A stretch of DNA of 35,878 bases from assembly GCA_031258715.1 (NCBI GenBank), contig JAIRMN010000157.1, forward strand, positions 1 through 35,878, read 5' to 3'. The translations under genes were made by a program, and so were the position numbers. Positions 29-17,735 of the stretch are shown piece by piece; position 1 is the stretch's first letter; each line of letters opens with the position of its first letter. Under the pieces are notes generated by a model, which had not been told where the DNA came from, did no database searches, and was given only the letters and a program-made list of their open reading frames with translations. This DNA is from Zoogloeaceae bacterium (lineage in GTDB: Bacteria; Pseudomonadota; Gammaproteobacteria; Burkholderiales; Rhodocyclaceae).

Positions 29-525
29 TCAAAATCGCCTGGTCGCCGCGCAAGAACAGGCCGAAACCTCATCTTCGGCGCGGATCGCGGAAAGGATAGG
101 ACAATCTTCCAGCGGGCCGCAACCCGGACACGCCGCCACCAGGCTGGCGAGCCGGGCGCGGATGCTTTCGAGGCAGGCGATCTGCGCTTCGATTTCAGCC
201 AGACGCCGGCTGGCGCGGGCTTTCACGCCCGCGACGCGGATTCGGCGTTGACCGAAAGATCCAGAAGATCGGCGATTTCCTCCAGGCTGAAACCCAGTTC
301 CTTCGCGCGCAGGATGAAATGTACCCGATCGACCGCGTTCCCCTCATATTCGCGGTAGCCGGAAGCGCCGCGCCGCGGGCATGGCAGCAAACCTTCGCGT
401 TCATAATAGCGCAGGGTATTCGTCGACACCCCGGTCGTCCTCGCCAGTTCCCCGATCGACATGGGCCGGGATAAAGATCGGGGCAAGGGCTGGAACAAGA
501 ACTTATCGCTGTGCATGCTCGTCAT
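29..525 (-). pseudogene. MerR-family metal-responsive regulator (CueR/HmrR-like), apparently frameshifted
   Basis: N-terminal part MSIGELARTTGVSTNTLRYYEREGLLPCPRRGASGYREYEGNAVDRVHFILRAKELGFSLEEIADLLDLSVNAES lies in the frame of ORF 223..2118. It continues in another frame as VAGVKARASRRLAEIEAQIACLESIRARLASLVAACPGCGPLEDCPILSAI (ORF 29..226). Frame change near 223-245. Exact start uncertain (525/528 or 462). Confidence 0.8.
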
Positions 526-566
526 CATGGGAAGGACACCAAAAGCCGGTTGGGAACACGGTTGGA

Positions 567-597
567 AAGTTAGCCTTGAAGTTGACTGCAAGGTCAA
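567..597 (-). promoter_or_regulatory. MerR-type promoter/operator upstream of merR
   Basis: Minus strand reads TTGACC-(19 nt: TTGCAGTCAACTTCAAGGC)-TAACTT. The 19-bp spacer carries an imperfect dyad CCTTGCAGTCAACTTCAAGG. Confidence 0.7.
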
Positions 598-629
598 AGA
601 CCGATTGTTGATATGTTGATTACGCCCGT

Positions 630-2384
630 TCATAAGACAAGCGTCGCGCCGCCCGTGGCGCCCAGATCCAGCGCCCGGTCGTGATAGGCGGCGACGCTTT
701 CCCGATGCGCGACGCTGACGATGGCGGCATTGGGCAGGCGCTCTTCCAGCAGGCGATACATCGCCGCCTCGTTGGCGGGGTCGAGCGAGGCGGTGGATTC
801 GTCGAGAAAGAGCCAGTCCGGCTTGTGCAGCAGGACGCGCGCGAAAGCCAGGCGTTGTTGTTCGCCGGGAGAGAGCCTTCTGTCCCAGTGATCGTACTCG
901 CCCAGTTCGCCCGCCAGATGTTCCAGCCTGACCGCGCGCAAAACTTCGGCGCACGCCTCCGCGCCGAAGCCCTGTTCGTCGCCGGGGTAGCACAGGCAGG
1001 CGCGCAGCGAGCCGAGCGGCAGGTAGCTTTTCTGGGGCAGGAACATCCTTGTGCCCTCCGGCAGGGCGATTCCGCCTTCGCCGTGCGGCCACAATCCGGC
1101 CATCGCGCGCAACAGCGTGCTTTTCCCCGCGCCGGAATGCCCCCGGATCACCCAGCGTTCGCCGGCCCTGAAAGTCAGCTCGTCGATGCGCAGCAGCGTT
1201 TCGCCACCAGGCAGGCGCAAATCCAGCGCGCGGAGGGAAAGGCAATCGGGCAGGGCATTCCGCGTGACGGCAATGCCGCCCGCCTCCTTCGCCTTCGTCG
1301 CCGCCTCGAACTCGATGAGGCGCAGGAAAACGGAACGCAAAAGCGCCAGATCCTTGTAGGCGAAAATGAACCAGGAGAGCGCCACGCGCACTCGGCTGAA
1401 GGAAGAAGTGAGCTGCTGCACCGCGCCCAGGGTGATCAGCCCGGCGAAATAGCGTGGTCCGACAATCAAGAGCGGCAGGTACACGCCAATTTCGATATAA
1501 CCCTCGTGGAACAGGGTGATCCGTTTCGTGTAATCCATGACGCGCCGCCAGTTCTCCCGGATCGCCATGAACGCGGCGGAAAGCCGCGCGGCCTCCGCGC
1601 GTCCGCCGGAATGAAAGGCGATCTGTTCGGCGTTTTCGCGCACCCGCACCATCAGATAACGGAAATGCGCTTCGTAACGCTGCTGGTAATAATCCACCCG
1701 CACCAGCGGATAACCGATCTTCTCCAGGAGCCAGGTGCCGAGCAGGGCGAAGATCACCGCCACCCACAACATGTAGCCGGGAATATCGATGGAGAGATCG
1801 CCCAGCGCGAAAGCGAGGCTGCCGGAGAGGTTCCAGACGATCACCGCGTAGGAGAAGAGCGTGGCCAGATTGGCGAGCAGACCCAGGAAAAGGCGCAGGC
1901 TGTCGCTGGAGAGCATCTGCAAATCCTCGCCGATGCGCTGATCCGGATTGTCGGCGCTGCCCGTGCGGGCGATCCGGTAATAGGCGTTCTCGTCCAGCCA
2001 GCGATGGAGAAAGACATCGGTCATCCAGGCGCGCCAGCGCATTTCCAGCGCCTGGAAAAACCAGGTGCGCGCGGTGATGAACGCCGACCAGAAGATGACG
2101 ATGACTGGATAAACCCACATCAGCTTCCAGAAAGCGGCCATGTCGCGTTCAGCCAGCGCGTCCCAGTAATCGCGCTGCCAGTAGGAAAGACGCACCCCGA
2201 CATAGGTGTTGCAGATGTCGATGCCGATGATGAGCGCCAGCAAGCCGCGCGCGCGCCAGCGTTCTTCCGACATCCAGTAGGGCAGGATCAGCCGCCAGGC
2301 GGAAGCAAGCCACCGGCCAAGCGGCGGCGCGGCGGCGGCGGGCCGTTCCCGCGCCAGGCGGCGGGTCACGGGATCGCCGGACAT
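630..2384 (-). CDS. ABC transporter, fused membrane domain + ATPase (YddA/SbmA/BacA-like, ABC_membrane_2 type)
   Basis: 584-aa ORF. TM N-terminus (SYWQRDYWDALAERDMAAFWKLMW), Walker A GHSGAGKST, signature LSPGEQQRLAFARVLLHKPDWLFLDESTASLD. Confidence 0.9.
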   Translation of the reverse strand: MSGDPVTRRLARERPAAAAPPLGRWLASAWRLILPYWMSEERWRARGLLALIIGIDICNTYVGVRLSYWQRDYWDALAERDMAAFWKLMWVYPVIVIFWSAFITARTWFFQALEMRWRAWMTDVFLHRWLDENAYYRIARTGSADNPDQRIGEDLQMLSSDSLRLFLGLLANLATLFSYAVIVWNLSGSLAFALGDLSIDIPGYMLWVAVIFALLGTWLLEKIGYPLVRVDYYQQRYEAHFRYLMVRVRENAEQIAFHSGGRAEAARLSAAFMAIRENWRRVMDYTKRITLFHEGYIEIGVYLPLLIVGPRYFAGLITLGAVQQLTSSFSRVRVALSWFIFAYKDLALLRSVFLRLIEFEAATKAKEAGGIAVTRNALPDCLSLRALDLRLPGGETLLRIDELTFRAGERWVIRGHSGAGKSTLLRAMAGLWPHGEGGIALPEGTRMFLPQKSYLPLGSLRACLCYPGDEQGFGAEACAEVLRAVRLEHLAGELGEYDHWDRRLSPGEQQRLAFARVLLHKPDWLFLDESTASLDPANEAAMYRLLEERLPNAAIVSVAHRESVAAYHDRALDLGATGGATLVL

Positions 2385-2549: not shown

Positions 2550-4721
2550 TCAATACGCCGCCCGCAGCGTGAGCAGGAAATTGCGCGGTTCGCCGTAGAG
2601 GTTGAAGTTGGAGACACTGCCGACACGGGCGTAATAAGTCTTGTCGAACAGGTTGTTTACATTGAGGGAAAGCGTCAGGTTCTTGTCGATGCGATAGGAA
2701 AGAAAGGCATGCGCGATCGTGTAGGCCTTTTGCGCGCGCGTCGCCGCCGCCGGGGTGTTGTTCTGCTGTATCCTGCTCGAATGGTTCGCGCCCAGGCCGA
2801 TGGTCAGCCCGTCCAGGCTTCCGCCGGAAAAGCGGTATGTGCTCCAGAGCTTGAACAGGTGTTCGGGGTTTATGGGGTTCAGGAGCGTGCCGTCTGTCGT
2901 CGCGCTGTTTTTCAGGTAAGTCGTCTGCTGGCGGGACCAGCCGGTCTGGATGTTCCAGCCGGGCGCGGGCGAACCCGACACCTCGATTTCCCAGCCCTTG
3001 CTTTCGACTTCCCCCGCGTCATAGTAGTAATAGACGCCGCCGCCGGAATGGTCGTTGTCCAGGATCGCCCGGTTCTTGTCCCGCAGCTTGAAGAACGCGA
3101 TCGAGGCAATCAGGTTGCCGTCGAAGAACTCTCCCTTGCCGCCGATTTCGTATTGCTTGCCGACGCGCGGCTGCACCGTGCCGCCGCCGTATTTCTGGGC
3201 CGTCTGGGGCGCGAAGATGTCGCTGTAGCTGGTGTAGAGGGAAACCTGCCGGTTTACGTCGAAGATCACGCCCGCGTAAGGCGTCACCTCGCCATGTTCT
3301 TCTCCGCCCGACTCCCAGTCCCCGGTCGGGCCAGCGGGCAGTGGCGTGTCACGGTAACGCCCGTCATAATCACTGACGCGCGCCCCGGCGATGACTGTCA
3401 AGGGGTCGGCAAGGCGAAGGCGCAACTGCCCATAATACCCGGACTGGCGATAATCTTCCTCCATCTTCAAGCTATAAGGCAGGTCGAAATCCGGGACAAG
3501 ATCCGGGTGGCCCAGGGGAATGCCCGTGGCGCTGGGAGCGACAACCCTTTTGTTGGCGTAACGAAGCCGCTCCCGGTTATAGCCCACCGTCGCCCGGTGT
3601 TCCCGCCCGAAGAGATGGAAAGGGCCGGAAGCGTACAGGTCGAAGCCGTCCCGCCTGTAAGTGGCGTCGTATGCGGCGCGGGTGTAATTGAGCGTGTTCG
3701 CGGCAGGGTTCACGCCGCTGCCCGGATTCGCGTAATGCGCGTCCCAACCCTGCTCGCGCTGGCTCAATTTCGCGGTGACGCGCCAGCCGTTATCGAAGCG
3801 ATGAGTCAATTCCGCCAGCGTGTCCTGGATATCCCACCTGGCCGTGCCCCAATCCGGGTTGAGATTCGTGCTGCGGGAGACGCCCAGGTGCCGGTTATCG
3901 GGGTTCGCGTAGGACGGCAGGCCGGTGAATAGCGCCCTGGTCTTGTCGCTCTGGGAAGCAAACGCCACGGAGAGCGTGGTGGCGGGCGTGATGTCCCAGT
4001 CCAGCGCGGCGTAGCCCAGGCGCTTTCTGGTATCCGTCGTGTCATAGAAATATTCCCGGTCGGTAATGGAAGCCACCACGCGGCCCCGCACCGAGCCACT
4101 CGCGTTGAGCGGGCCGCCCACGTCCGCCTGGAGGTTGTAATTGTTCCACGATCCGGCGGAAACGCTGGCGGAAAAGGCGCGTTCTTTCTGCCCGCGTTTC
4201 CTGACCAGATTGACCACGCCGCCGGGATTGCCCGAGCCCTGGAACAAGCCGGCGGAACCGCGCAATACCTCGATCTGCTCGTAGAGCGCCAGATCCAGTT
4301 GCTGCACGCCGGAAAGCGCGCTATAGGCAGGAACGCCGTCGAAGGTCACATTCATGCCCCAGCCCCGCGAACTGTATTGGCTCGCCTGCGTATCATTGGC
4401 GAGGACGCTTACGCCCGTCACCTGCCTGAGCGCCTCATCCACCGTCACCAATCCTTGATCCTCGATGCGCTCCCTGGTGATGACGGAGACCGATTGCGGA
4501 ATCTCCCGCGGTTTCACGGGTTCCTTGCCGCCGACGGACACGTCGCGGATATAGCGCGCGCCCGTGACCGTAACCGGTTCGAGCGTGACCGCTTCCGCTT
4601 CCTCTTCCGCCTGCGCCCATGCCGGGGACGAGGCAGCGACGCCAAGTGACGCGAACAGCGCGCAGATTACCCGGCGATCGACTCGGTGGGGGGTAAACTT
4701 GCTTTGCTTCTTCGTTGCCAT
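2550..4721 (-). CDS. TonB-dependent siderophore-type receptor (FhuE/FpvA-like)
   Basis: 723-aa ORF with signal peptide, plug domain (VTVTGARY...EIPQSVSVITRERIEDQG...GNPGGVVNLVRKR) and C-terminal barrel ending in aromatic residues (FLLTLRAAY). Confidence 0.93.
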   Translation of the reverse strand: MATKKQSKFTPHRVDRRVICALFASLGVAASSPAWAQAEEEAEAVTLEPVTVTGARYIRDVSVGGKEPVKPREIPQSVSVITRERIEDQGLVTVDEALRQVTGVSVLANDTQASQYSSRGWGMNVTFDGVPAYSALSGVQQLDLALYEQIEVLRGSAGLFQGSGNPGGVVNLVRKRGQKERAFSASVSAGSWNNYNLQADVGGPLNASGSVRGRVVASITDREYFYDTTDTRKRLGYAALDWDITPATTLSVAFASQSDKTRALFTGLPSYANPDNRHLGVSRSTNLNPDWGTARWDIQDTLAELTHRFDNGWRVTAKLSQREQGWDAHYANPGSGVNPAANTLNYTRAAYDATYRRDGFDLYASGPFHLFGREHRATVGYNRERLRYANKRVVAPSATGIPLGHPDLVPDFDLPYSLKMEEDYRQSGYYGQLRLRLADPLTVIAGARVSDYDGRYRDTPLPAGPTGDWESGGEEHGEVTPYAGVIFDVNRQVSLYTSYSDIFAPQTAQKYGGGTVQPRVGKQYEIGGKGEFFDGNLIASIAFFKLRDKNRAILDNDHSGGGVYYYYDAGEVESKGWEIEVSGSPAPGWNIQTGWSRQQTTYLKNSATTDGTLLNPINPEHLFKLWSTYRFSGGSLDGLTIGLGANHSSRIQQNNTPAAATRAQKAYTIAHAFLSYRIDKNLTLSLNVNNLFDKTYYARVGSVSNFNLYGEPRNFLLTLRAAY

Positions 4722-4798
4722 GATGCTCTCTCTTGGAAAATTCCGTTACCAACACAAATTCGGCCAGATGAAGCCGCCGACGCCAAAATACATTTGGA

Positions 4799-4829
4799 AA
4801 TCTAGCCTTGAAGTCGACTTCAAAGTCAA
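4799..4829 (-). promoter_or_regulatory. MerR-type promoter/operator upstream of the TonB receptor
   Basis: Minus strand reads TTGACT-(19 nt)-TAGATT. The spacer holds a perfect 16-bp palindrome TTGAAGTCGACTTCAA (4808-4823). Confidence 0.8.
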
Positions 4830-5240
4830 AGACGGATAAGTGATATGCTGATTACGCCCAATTCAATATGTTGATTACGCCCGTTCATAAGGCCGGCGCC
4901 GTGGGTGGCGATAAGGGCGCGCGCCTGCCGGACGCGCGTGAGCGCCAGATCAAGGGCTTCCAGGCGTGGCGGCAAGGGGCGAAATCGTCGCCCACGGCCG
5001 CCATGATCAGCGGCTCGCCGCCCAGCGATTTCAGGTTGTAAGCCAGGAGATAATCCTTCAAGGCTCGTTCGAGTTTTCGTATGGAAAAGCCGCCGGAAAA
5101 CTGGCGGCCTGGCGGGAAATAACCCCAATTCCCTGCGGATGCCGCGTCACACGACCAAGCGTTATCCCCGCTTTGAGCCGCCGCGTCCAGATTCTATCGT
5201 CATAAACTGGTTCTTGCGCGTTACGCGCGCTCCAATTTTC

Positions 5241-16483: not shown

Positions 16484-17735
16484 ATGAAACGACTTCAAGC
16501 CTTCAAGTACGAACTGATGCCCAATGGCGAGCAGACGCGAAACATGCGCCGCTTCGCCGGGTCATGCCGCGTCGTCTTCAACGAGGCGCTGGCCTTGCAG
16601 AAGGCGCGGTTCGATGCCGGGGAGAAAAAGCTGGGCTGTGTGGGATTGTGCAAGCGGCTCACGGAATGGCGAAACGGCGAGCCGATGCCCTCCGGCCGCT
16701 TCGCGCCGTGGTTGAAGGTCTCCCCCGTACACCCGTTGCAGCAAACCTTGAAAGACCTGGAACGCGCATACAGGAACTTCTTTGAGAAGCGCGCCGGCTT
16801 CCCTCGTTTCAAGAAGAGGGGGCAAAAGGACGGTTTCCGCTACCCCGACCCGAAACAGATCAAACTCGACCAAGGCAACAGCCGTGTCTTCCTGCCCAAG
16901 CTGGGCTGGCTGCGCTACCGGAAGAGCCGGGAAGCGTTGGGCGAATTGCGAAATGCGACGGTATCCCTGTCGGCGGGCAAGTGGTTCATTTCCATCCAGA
17001 CGGAACGGGAAGTTTCCGACCCCGTGCCGGAAGCGACAAGCGCCGTAGGGATCGACGTGGGGATTGCCCGCTTCGCCACGTTGTCGGACGGTGCGTTCTA
17101 CACGCCCTCTTGACAGTTTCAGGAAACATGAACAACGGCTCAAACGCACTCAGCGGGCGATGAGCCGCAAGGTGAAATTCAGCCAGAACTGGAAGAAGGC
17201 GAAGGACAAAGTCCAGCGGCTGCACGCCCGCATCGGCAACGCCCGCCGCGACTACCTGCACAAGTGCTCGGCCACGATCAGCAAAAACCACGCGATGGTG
17301 GCCGTGGAAGATTTGCAGGTGAAGAACATGTCCCGTTCTGCTTCCGGCGCGAAGGATGCGCCGGGAAAGAACGTCCGGGCAAAAAGCGGGCTGAACAAAT
17401 CCATCCTCGATCAAGGCTGGTTCGAGTTCCGCCGCCAGTTGGAATACAAGCTGGCGTGGAACGGCGGCTGGCTGATTGCAGTGCCGCCGCAAAACACGAG
17501 CCGGACATGTCCGGCCTGTGGGCATGTGTCGGCGGAGAATCGCCAGACGCAGAGCCGCTTTCTCTGTGTGAAATGCGGTTTCGAGGAAAACGCCGATCTC
17601 GTCGGCGCGATCAACATCCTGGCGCGGGGACACCGCGTTGCAGCCTGTGGAGAGCCGGTGCAGTCAGGCCGCTCGGTGAAGCAGGAACCCGCCGAAGCGA
17701 TTCAAACCGGCTCAATGCCAGTCTGGACGCCGTAG
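16484..17735 (+). pseudogene. tnpB: TnpB (RNA-guided RuvC-like nuclease, OrfB), frameshifted
   Basis: ORF 16484..17113 ends GIDVGIARFATLSDGAFYTPS. Continues in +1 frame as (L)DSFRKHEQRLKRTQRAMSRK... with VAVEDLQVKNM (RuvC-II), CPACGH...CVKCGF zinc finger and NADLVGAINIL (RuvC-III). Confidence 0.9.

Follow-up and report, generated by a model that had tools for sequence, protein, structure and literature searches.

MerR-type metal switches are textbook controls of metal efflux, and TonB-dependent importers are usually placed under Fur, under extracytoplasmic function (ECF) sigma/FecR systems or under metal-specific repressors. The hallmark of MerR metal promoters is a palindrome within a spacer of 19 or 20 bp (PMC1526738), and the family activates by distorting promoter DNA in which this spacer is over-long (PMC7722741). 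An operator for MerR in a spacer of 19-20 bp is therefore a well-known kind of element. Here, we describe a probable element of this kind at positions 4799-4829 of a 35,878-nucleotide stretch of DNA (the window) from a Zoogloeaceae bacterium (contig JAIRMN010000157.1), where it precedes genes for a TonB-dependent receptor (TBDR), an SbmA-type ATP-binding cassette (ABC) transporter and a MerR-type metalloregulator (merR). We consider it likely that the adjacent regulator uses this site as its operator and that the promoter drives a TBDR-ABC-merR operon, which most probably runs on into copA, HMA and tonB-exbB-exbD genes.

Promoter and operator

On the minus strand, the TBDR promoter (4829-4799) reads TTGACT-TTGAAGTCGACTTCAAGGC-TAGATT, with the -35 hexamer TTGACT (4824..4829) and the -10 hexamer TAGATT (4799..4804) separated by 19 bp. 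A perfect 16-bp palindrome (4808-4823) forms the inner part of a 20-bp operator dyad, CTTTGAAGTC|GACTTCAAGG (4806..4825), in which 9/10 positions pair. An earlier sequence-only reading of this DNA had named these hexamers and this palindrome as a MerR operator in an over-long spacer, and its letters are exact, base for base. However, DNA with the length and base composition of the window should by chance contain about one perfect 16-bp palindrome, and the window contains two, the other being GCCGGACATGTCCGGC at 17500, so that the palindrome alone is not evidence; we dropped the argument from its perfection, and the significance of the operator derives from comparison across relatives, not from the palindrome itself. 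Matches to the operator 16-mer with at most three mismatches number two in the window against 0.07 expected, both in promoter layout, a count reached in 0/100 shuffles. Across the whole 2.73-Mb genome, a scan for the dyad in promoter position (at most one mismatch) returned the TBDR and merR promoters and nothing else. Sites with two mismatches on contigs C80 and C171 lack the hexamers and were put down to chance. A consensus promoter scan with spacers of 16-18 bp detected neither the TBDR nor the merR promoter, as expected from their spacer of 19 bp.

Promoters of the same form lie upstream of TBDR, merR or both in related loci. The spacer is exactly 19 bp in 21/21 promoters collected from these loci, which were picked by TTGAC before these genes, so that the hexamers are partly selected for and the spacer is the informative feature; in the 15 promoters that were aligned, TTGAC is invariant (15/15). 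The two half-sites of the dyad co-vary: 120/189 dyad pairs match, and this number falls to 102.8 +/- 5.1 if each left half is joined to the right half of another promoter (P=0.0006; for the termite-type clade alone, P=0.017). The neighbouring dyad centres tested give no signal. In locus L041, both arms have been rewritten, from TTGAAG...CTTCAA to TTCGCG...CGCGAA, and are still palindromic. A 27-mer pattern gave 10 matches in 21 same-genus genomes and 0 for the reversed-pattern control; every match precedes TBDR, merR or, in genome G002, a tonB-exbB-exbD operon, which appears to be a regulon member elsewhere in a genome. The constant spacer and the co-varying half-sites, together with the metal-type merR linked in most modules and the layout of E. 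coli copA and cueO, support the assignment of 4799-4829 as a MerR-type operator, for which activation by DNA distortion would follow the family pattern.

The merR promoter (597-567, minus strand) reads TTGACC-TTGCAGTCAACTTCAAGGC-TAACTT and also has a 19-bp spacer, with the -35 hexamer TTGACC at 592..597, the operator dyad at 574..593 and the -10 hexamer TAACTT at 567..572, 19 bp from the -35. As the sequence-only reading held, it shares the TBDR promoter layout with a degenerate dyad (8/10 pairs versus 9/10), but the weaker autoregulation proposed on that ground is not a conserved trait: the dyad of the orthologous L037 merR promoter pairs at 9/10 positions (CCTTGAAGTCAACTTCAAGG) and surpasses the L037 TBDR site (7/10). 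Both window promoters lie within a 73-bp direct repeat on the minus strand, whose copies, 82% identical, occupy 4787..4859 and, between the ABC gene and merR, 555..627. The duplicated promoter region spans 555-646 and 4787-4901, and its TBDR-side copy also carries the ABC stop-codon region (TTATGAACGGGCGTAATCAACATAT), as though derived from the ABC-merR junction. Upstream of the -35, a conserved AT-rich, TAATCAGCATATCAnnnATCnGTCT-like block is found at 4830..4854 (minus strand), with its merR-promoter counterpart at 598-622. Across 15 promoters (from both window sites, L035, L037-L043, L117, L119 and L122), conservation in these 25 bp averages 1.17 bits/column, whereas the sequence beyond them reaches 0.44 on the upstream side and 0.36 on the downstream side. 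In some promoters (L035, L043) the block forms a near-perfect ATATCAAT-N-ATTGATAT dyad; possible roles are those of an UP element and of a second operator or regulator site. At L035, the MerR-type promoter occurs in two tandem copies before TBDR, upstream of 3296.

Controlled genes, regulator and linked metal pump

Behind the promoter, the minus strand carries TBDR, ABC and merR in this order. The genome comprises 233 contigs, and the window forms the beginning of one of them, C5. The 723-aa TBDR (2550..4721, minus strand; PF00593, PF07715, TIGR01783) scores 344.8 bits with the siderophore-receptor model TIGR01783, above the cutoff of 223.5. Its closest solved structures are FptA, FpvA, FauA and FhuE, the nearest being the ferri-pyochelin receptor FptA (1xkw, E=4e-115). 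By family model it is a predicted siderophore-type receptor, which may transport a ferric siderophore. The 584-aa ABC protein (630..2384, minus strand) is an SbmA/BacA-type transporter with a fused ATPase, scoring 106.5, 166.1 and 65.4 bits with PF05992, PF06472 and PF00005 (cutoffs 24, 24.4 and 25). The solved structures closest to it are 6tqe, which we take to be Rv1819c, and ABCD4. The ABC gene has close relatives (67-86% identity) chiefly in metagenome-assembled genomes (MAGs) of Zoogloeaceae, Azoarcus and 'Accumulibacter' and in Pseudothauera, Thauera and Azoarcus; to judge from isolate naming, the MAG series among the closest relatives is presumably of termite-gut origin.

The merR gene (29..529, minus strand) is split into an N-terminal part (~529-223) and a C-terminal part with CPGCGPLEDCPIL (~247-29). 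It is one base short near 237 (window 223-247; GAATCCGCG versus GAATCCGGCG in L037), which places the two parts in different frames. The gene is intact in L035, L037, L038, L040 and others, and the frameshift, some 237 bp from the contig end, may reflect a recent pseudogene or an assembly error. The sequence-only reading had noted neither this frameshift nor the fact that the controlled genes encode TonB-dependent import and are linked to a metal pump.

What metal does the regulator sense? Intact relatives score best with the CueR, MerR or ZntR NCBIfam models, and both phmmer, which ranks E. coli CueR first among solved proteins, and the NCBIfam scores favour CueR. Two metal-binding cysteines are present in a C-terminal C..CPI metal loop, where C112 and C121-P122 are invariant in 11 relatives. 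The title of a paper cited in PMC6769254 links Ser77 of CueR to the sensing of monovalent metals. In the sister clade with a Zn/Cd-type pump, the regulator has a 4-residue deletion near the Ser77 position and a nearby Cys. Six intact relatives score 102.6-120.7 bits with the CueR equivalog TIGR02044 (cutoff 147.4 bits), and the published CueR operator consensus, ACCTTCCC-(5)-TGGAAGGT (PMC1526738), is replaced in the window by CCTTGAAGTYRACTTCAAGG, which is even-centred. We do not claim membership of CueR, as equivalog score, Ser77 position and operator consensus all depart from it. ZntR, suggested by a AGTCGACT core shared with zntA, was rejected for the window clade: ZntR scores of 98-120 bits are far below the cutoff of 167.95 bits, the spacer is 19 bp where ZntR requires 20 bp, and the nearest P1B pump is CopA-type. 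The regulator appears to be a divergent CueR-like sensor with an exchangeable metal type.

In L035, L037 and L040, merR is followed directly by the P1B-1 copper ATPase CopA; the L035 ATPase scores 567 bits with TIGR01511 (cutoff 397) versus 388 with TIGR01512. In L041, L042, L043 and L045, a P1B-2 Zn/Cd-type ATPase takes this place. It thus seems that the sensor switches along with the pump between the Cu and the Zn/Cd clade, whereas TBDR and ABC stay. In the window genome itself, contig C86 opens inside a copA gene, of which the 60 C-terminal codons are present (93% identity to L035 at the protein level); three small HMA-like proteins, tonB, exbB and exbD come next. The first HMA-like protein on C86 (L168, 232-459) has neither a CxxC motif nor a Pfam match and lies beside two normal HMA proteins.

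Linkage of merR to the TBDR-ABC pair was found in nine termite-type loci and five further genomes of the family. The order is TBDR-ABC-merR in L035, L037, L038, L040, L041, L042, L043 and L045, merR-(HMA)-TBDR-ABC in L044, L047, L156 and L157, and merR-copA-HMA-TBDR-ABC in L158. All parts of the operon co-occur in continuous sequence elsewhere, as the unbroken orders TBDR-tonB-exbB-exbD-ABC-merR-copA (L037) and merR-HMA-TBDR-ABC-tonB-exbB-exbD (L044) attest, and the simplest reading of the window genome is a single TBDR-ABC-merR-copA-HMA-tonB-exbB-exbD operon split by the contig break. In L039 and L040, two tandem SbmA-type ABC genes follow TBDR and perhaps encode a heterodimer.

When 399 genomes from across the order were searched for the regulator (E<=1e-42), none had a match, but the window's own frameshifted gene also missed this cutoff, and the result shows only that close orthologues are rare outside the family. 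A plasmid search gave only receptors below 60% identity, and the three neighbourhoods that were read have no efflux-type merR or copA beside the receptor. The scanned parts of the remaining window (7574-35878) are ordinary, with a sigma-54 response regulator, a histidine kinase, a type IV pilus ATPase, a PilC-type protein, a prepilin peptidase, ALAD, acetate kinase and a WG-repeat protein.

Proposed switch and alternatives

By analogy with the MerR family, we propose that a dimer of the regulator occupies the 20-bp dyad inside the spacer, that without metal the 19-bp spacer would hinder RNA polymerase from making good use of both hexamers, and that the metal-bound dimer would kink and untwist the spacer and turn the promoter on. 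This promoter would drive TBDR, the SbmA-type ABC gene and merR, and most probably, past the contig break, the P1B-1 copper ATPase, the HMA chaperones and a dedicated tonB-exbB-exbD set. The second promoter copy before merR would confer autoregulation. Metal would then switch on TBDR, ABC and merR, and also copA, HMA and tonB if the operon is continuous. Gene linkage favours Cu(I) as the inducer in the window clade.

Several points weigh against this scheme. The merR gene is frameshifted in the window assembly and the switch may be broken in the window strain; in addition, the junction of merR with copA is unassembled in this genome, and its continuity is suggested by relatives only. Full-length relatives of the regulator stay below the NCBIfam equivalog cutoffs for CueR, ZntR, MerR and CadR/PbrR alike, the alignment places Val at the CueR Ser77 position in the window-type clade, so that Cu(I) is not proven, and the dyad is even-centred like that of zntA, unlike the odd-centred copA and cueO dyads.

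Could the receptor-ABC pair instead import a copper chelate, with the regulator acting as a repressor at high metal? HMA proteins within the operon would suit copper acquisition, CueR represses oprC in P. aeruginosa (PMC6907878) and the operon of the TonB receptor bfrG is down-regulated by copper (PMC9426467). However, an invariant 19-bp spacer matches MerR promoters that metal activates, the receptor satisfies the siderophore-receptor model and is nearest to siderophore receptors such as FptA, and the sister clade pairs the same receptor and ABC protein with a pump of Zn/Cd type, a combination not predicted for a copper importer; we therefore regard this alternative as unlikely. It is also doubtful that merR is a true pseudogene and both operators a relic, unregulated in the window strain though regulated in relatives. 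The one-base deletion does take out the dimerisation helix and the metal site, and the genome holds no second close MerR (one match at E<=1e-12), but the frameshift lies close to a contig end in a fragmented genome, where assembly errors are common, each half of merR is 87% similar to L006, and the palindrome is perfect.

The dyad might belong to another regulator, SoxR-like or other, with merR a mere neighbour: MerR-family sites look alike, and in genome G006 the site precedes TBDR although the search for merR, at its cutoff, gave no match there. We consider this very improbable: merR is present in 4/5 genomes with sites versus 6/21 overall (hypergeometric P ~0.011), the site recurs in merR's own promoter, and the G006 contig is a 3.6-kb fragment. 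That an ordinary promoter merely contains a chance palindrome is scarcely credible, even with about one such palindrome expected in the window, given the second copy at merR, the fixed 19-bp spacing, the half-site co-variation and the genus-wide match pattern.

With a metal-activated switch as the preferred explanation, what might the import line contribute? The class of the receptor and the existence of both Cu and Zn/Cd versions speak for a stress response through uptake of a chelate or of iron rather than for oprC-like copper feeding. Speculatively, the TBDR-ABC pair may import a siderophore-like chelate, either to rescue the iron supply or to sequester metal, with the toxic metal expelled by the linked ATPase. 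For the family of the window genome (the termite-gut clade, Pseudothauera, Azoarcus and others), we tentatively suggest, as a possibility and short of an even bet, a metal-stress import operon: TBDR, an SbmA-type ABC transporter and a private TonB-ExbB-ExbD system under an efflux-type MerR switch together with an efflux ATPase, with sensor and pump exchanged between Cu and Zn/Cd types around a constant import pair, such that the toxic metal itself would trigger chelate uptake.

Relation to known systems

Several known systems resemble the window locus in part. A CueR-type regulator also controls a TonB-dependent receptor in the CueR-oprC/H2-type type VI secretion system circuit of Pseudomonas aeruginosa, but by repression and for copper uptake through another type of receptor, and no co-operonic ABC, TonB or ATPase genes are described there (PMC6907878). 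In the betaproteobacterium Bordetella pertussis, the bp2923-bfrG-bp2921 operon likewise encodes a copper-regulated TonB-dependent transporter, whereas control is post-transcriptional, through the upstream open reading frame CruR, copper down-regulates the operon and there is no MerR operator (PMC9426467). The MerR-like protein MliR of Bizionia argentinensis activates TonB receptor and TonB genes, but this Bacteroidetes protein lacks an effector domain and cysteines and is unlinked to a metal pump (PMC9478572). On a plasmid of Acidovorax sp. DW039, a receptor 40% identical to the TBDR directly precedes an 'ABC transporter ATP-binding protein/permease' under FecI/FecR-type cell-surface signalling (ECF sigma/FecR) rather than a metal MerR, and a related receptor adjoins a Fur-family gene in Comamonas; because of these two arrangements, MerR control of the receptor-ABC pair looks like a rewiring, as judged from gene neighbourhoods. 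We found no description of the TBDR-ABC-merR/metal-pump wiring in the openly accessible literature searched, and a complete TonB import line combined with both a divergent CueR-like sensor of exchangeable metal type and a metal pump would be a variant not described there.

The promoters of E. coli copA and cueO, controlled by CueR, resemble the window site in their TTGACC -35 and 19-bp spacer (a TTGACC-19-TANNCT-type layout) and in a dyad with CCTT/AAGG outer edges inside the spacer, and the CueR system shares the CPG...CPI metal-loop regulator and the linked P1B-1 copper ATPase. It differs in the centre of the dyad (13.5 in the window versus 13.0), in Ser77, replaced by Val here, and in the first genes, which here encode a TonB receptor and an SbmA-type ABC transporter. 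ZntR/zntA of E. coli shares the even-centred 20-bp dyad with a AGTCGACT core and, with the sister clade (L041-L043, L045), the P1B-2 (ZntA-type) ATPase, but has a spacer of 20 bp where the present promoters always have 19. The swap between Cu-type and Zn/Cd-type sister clades allows sensor, operator and pump to be compared in a natural setting, and the conserved operator makes the metal-switch reading directly testable. An efflux-type switch and pump joined to a full TonB import line would mean one of two things: the uptake of chelates belongs to metal detoxification, or metal uptake is regulated in an unexpected direction. The former would match E. coli, which under copper needs TonB and enterobactin uptake to survive (PMC8419524).
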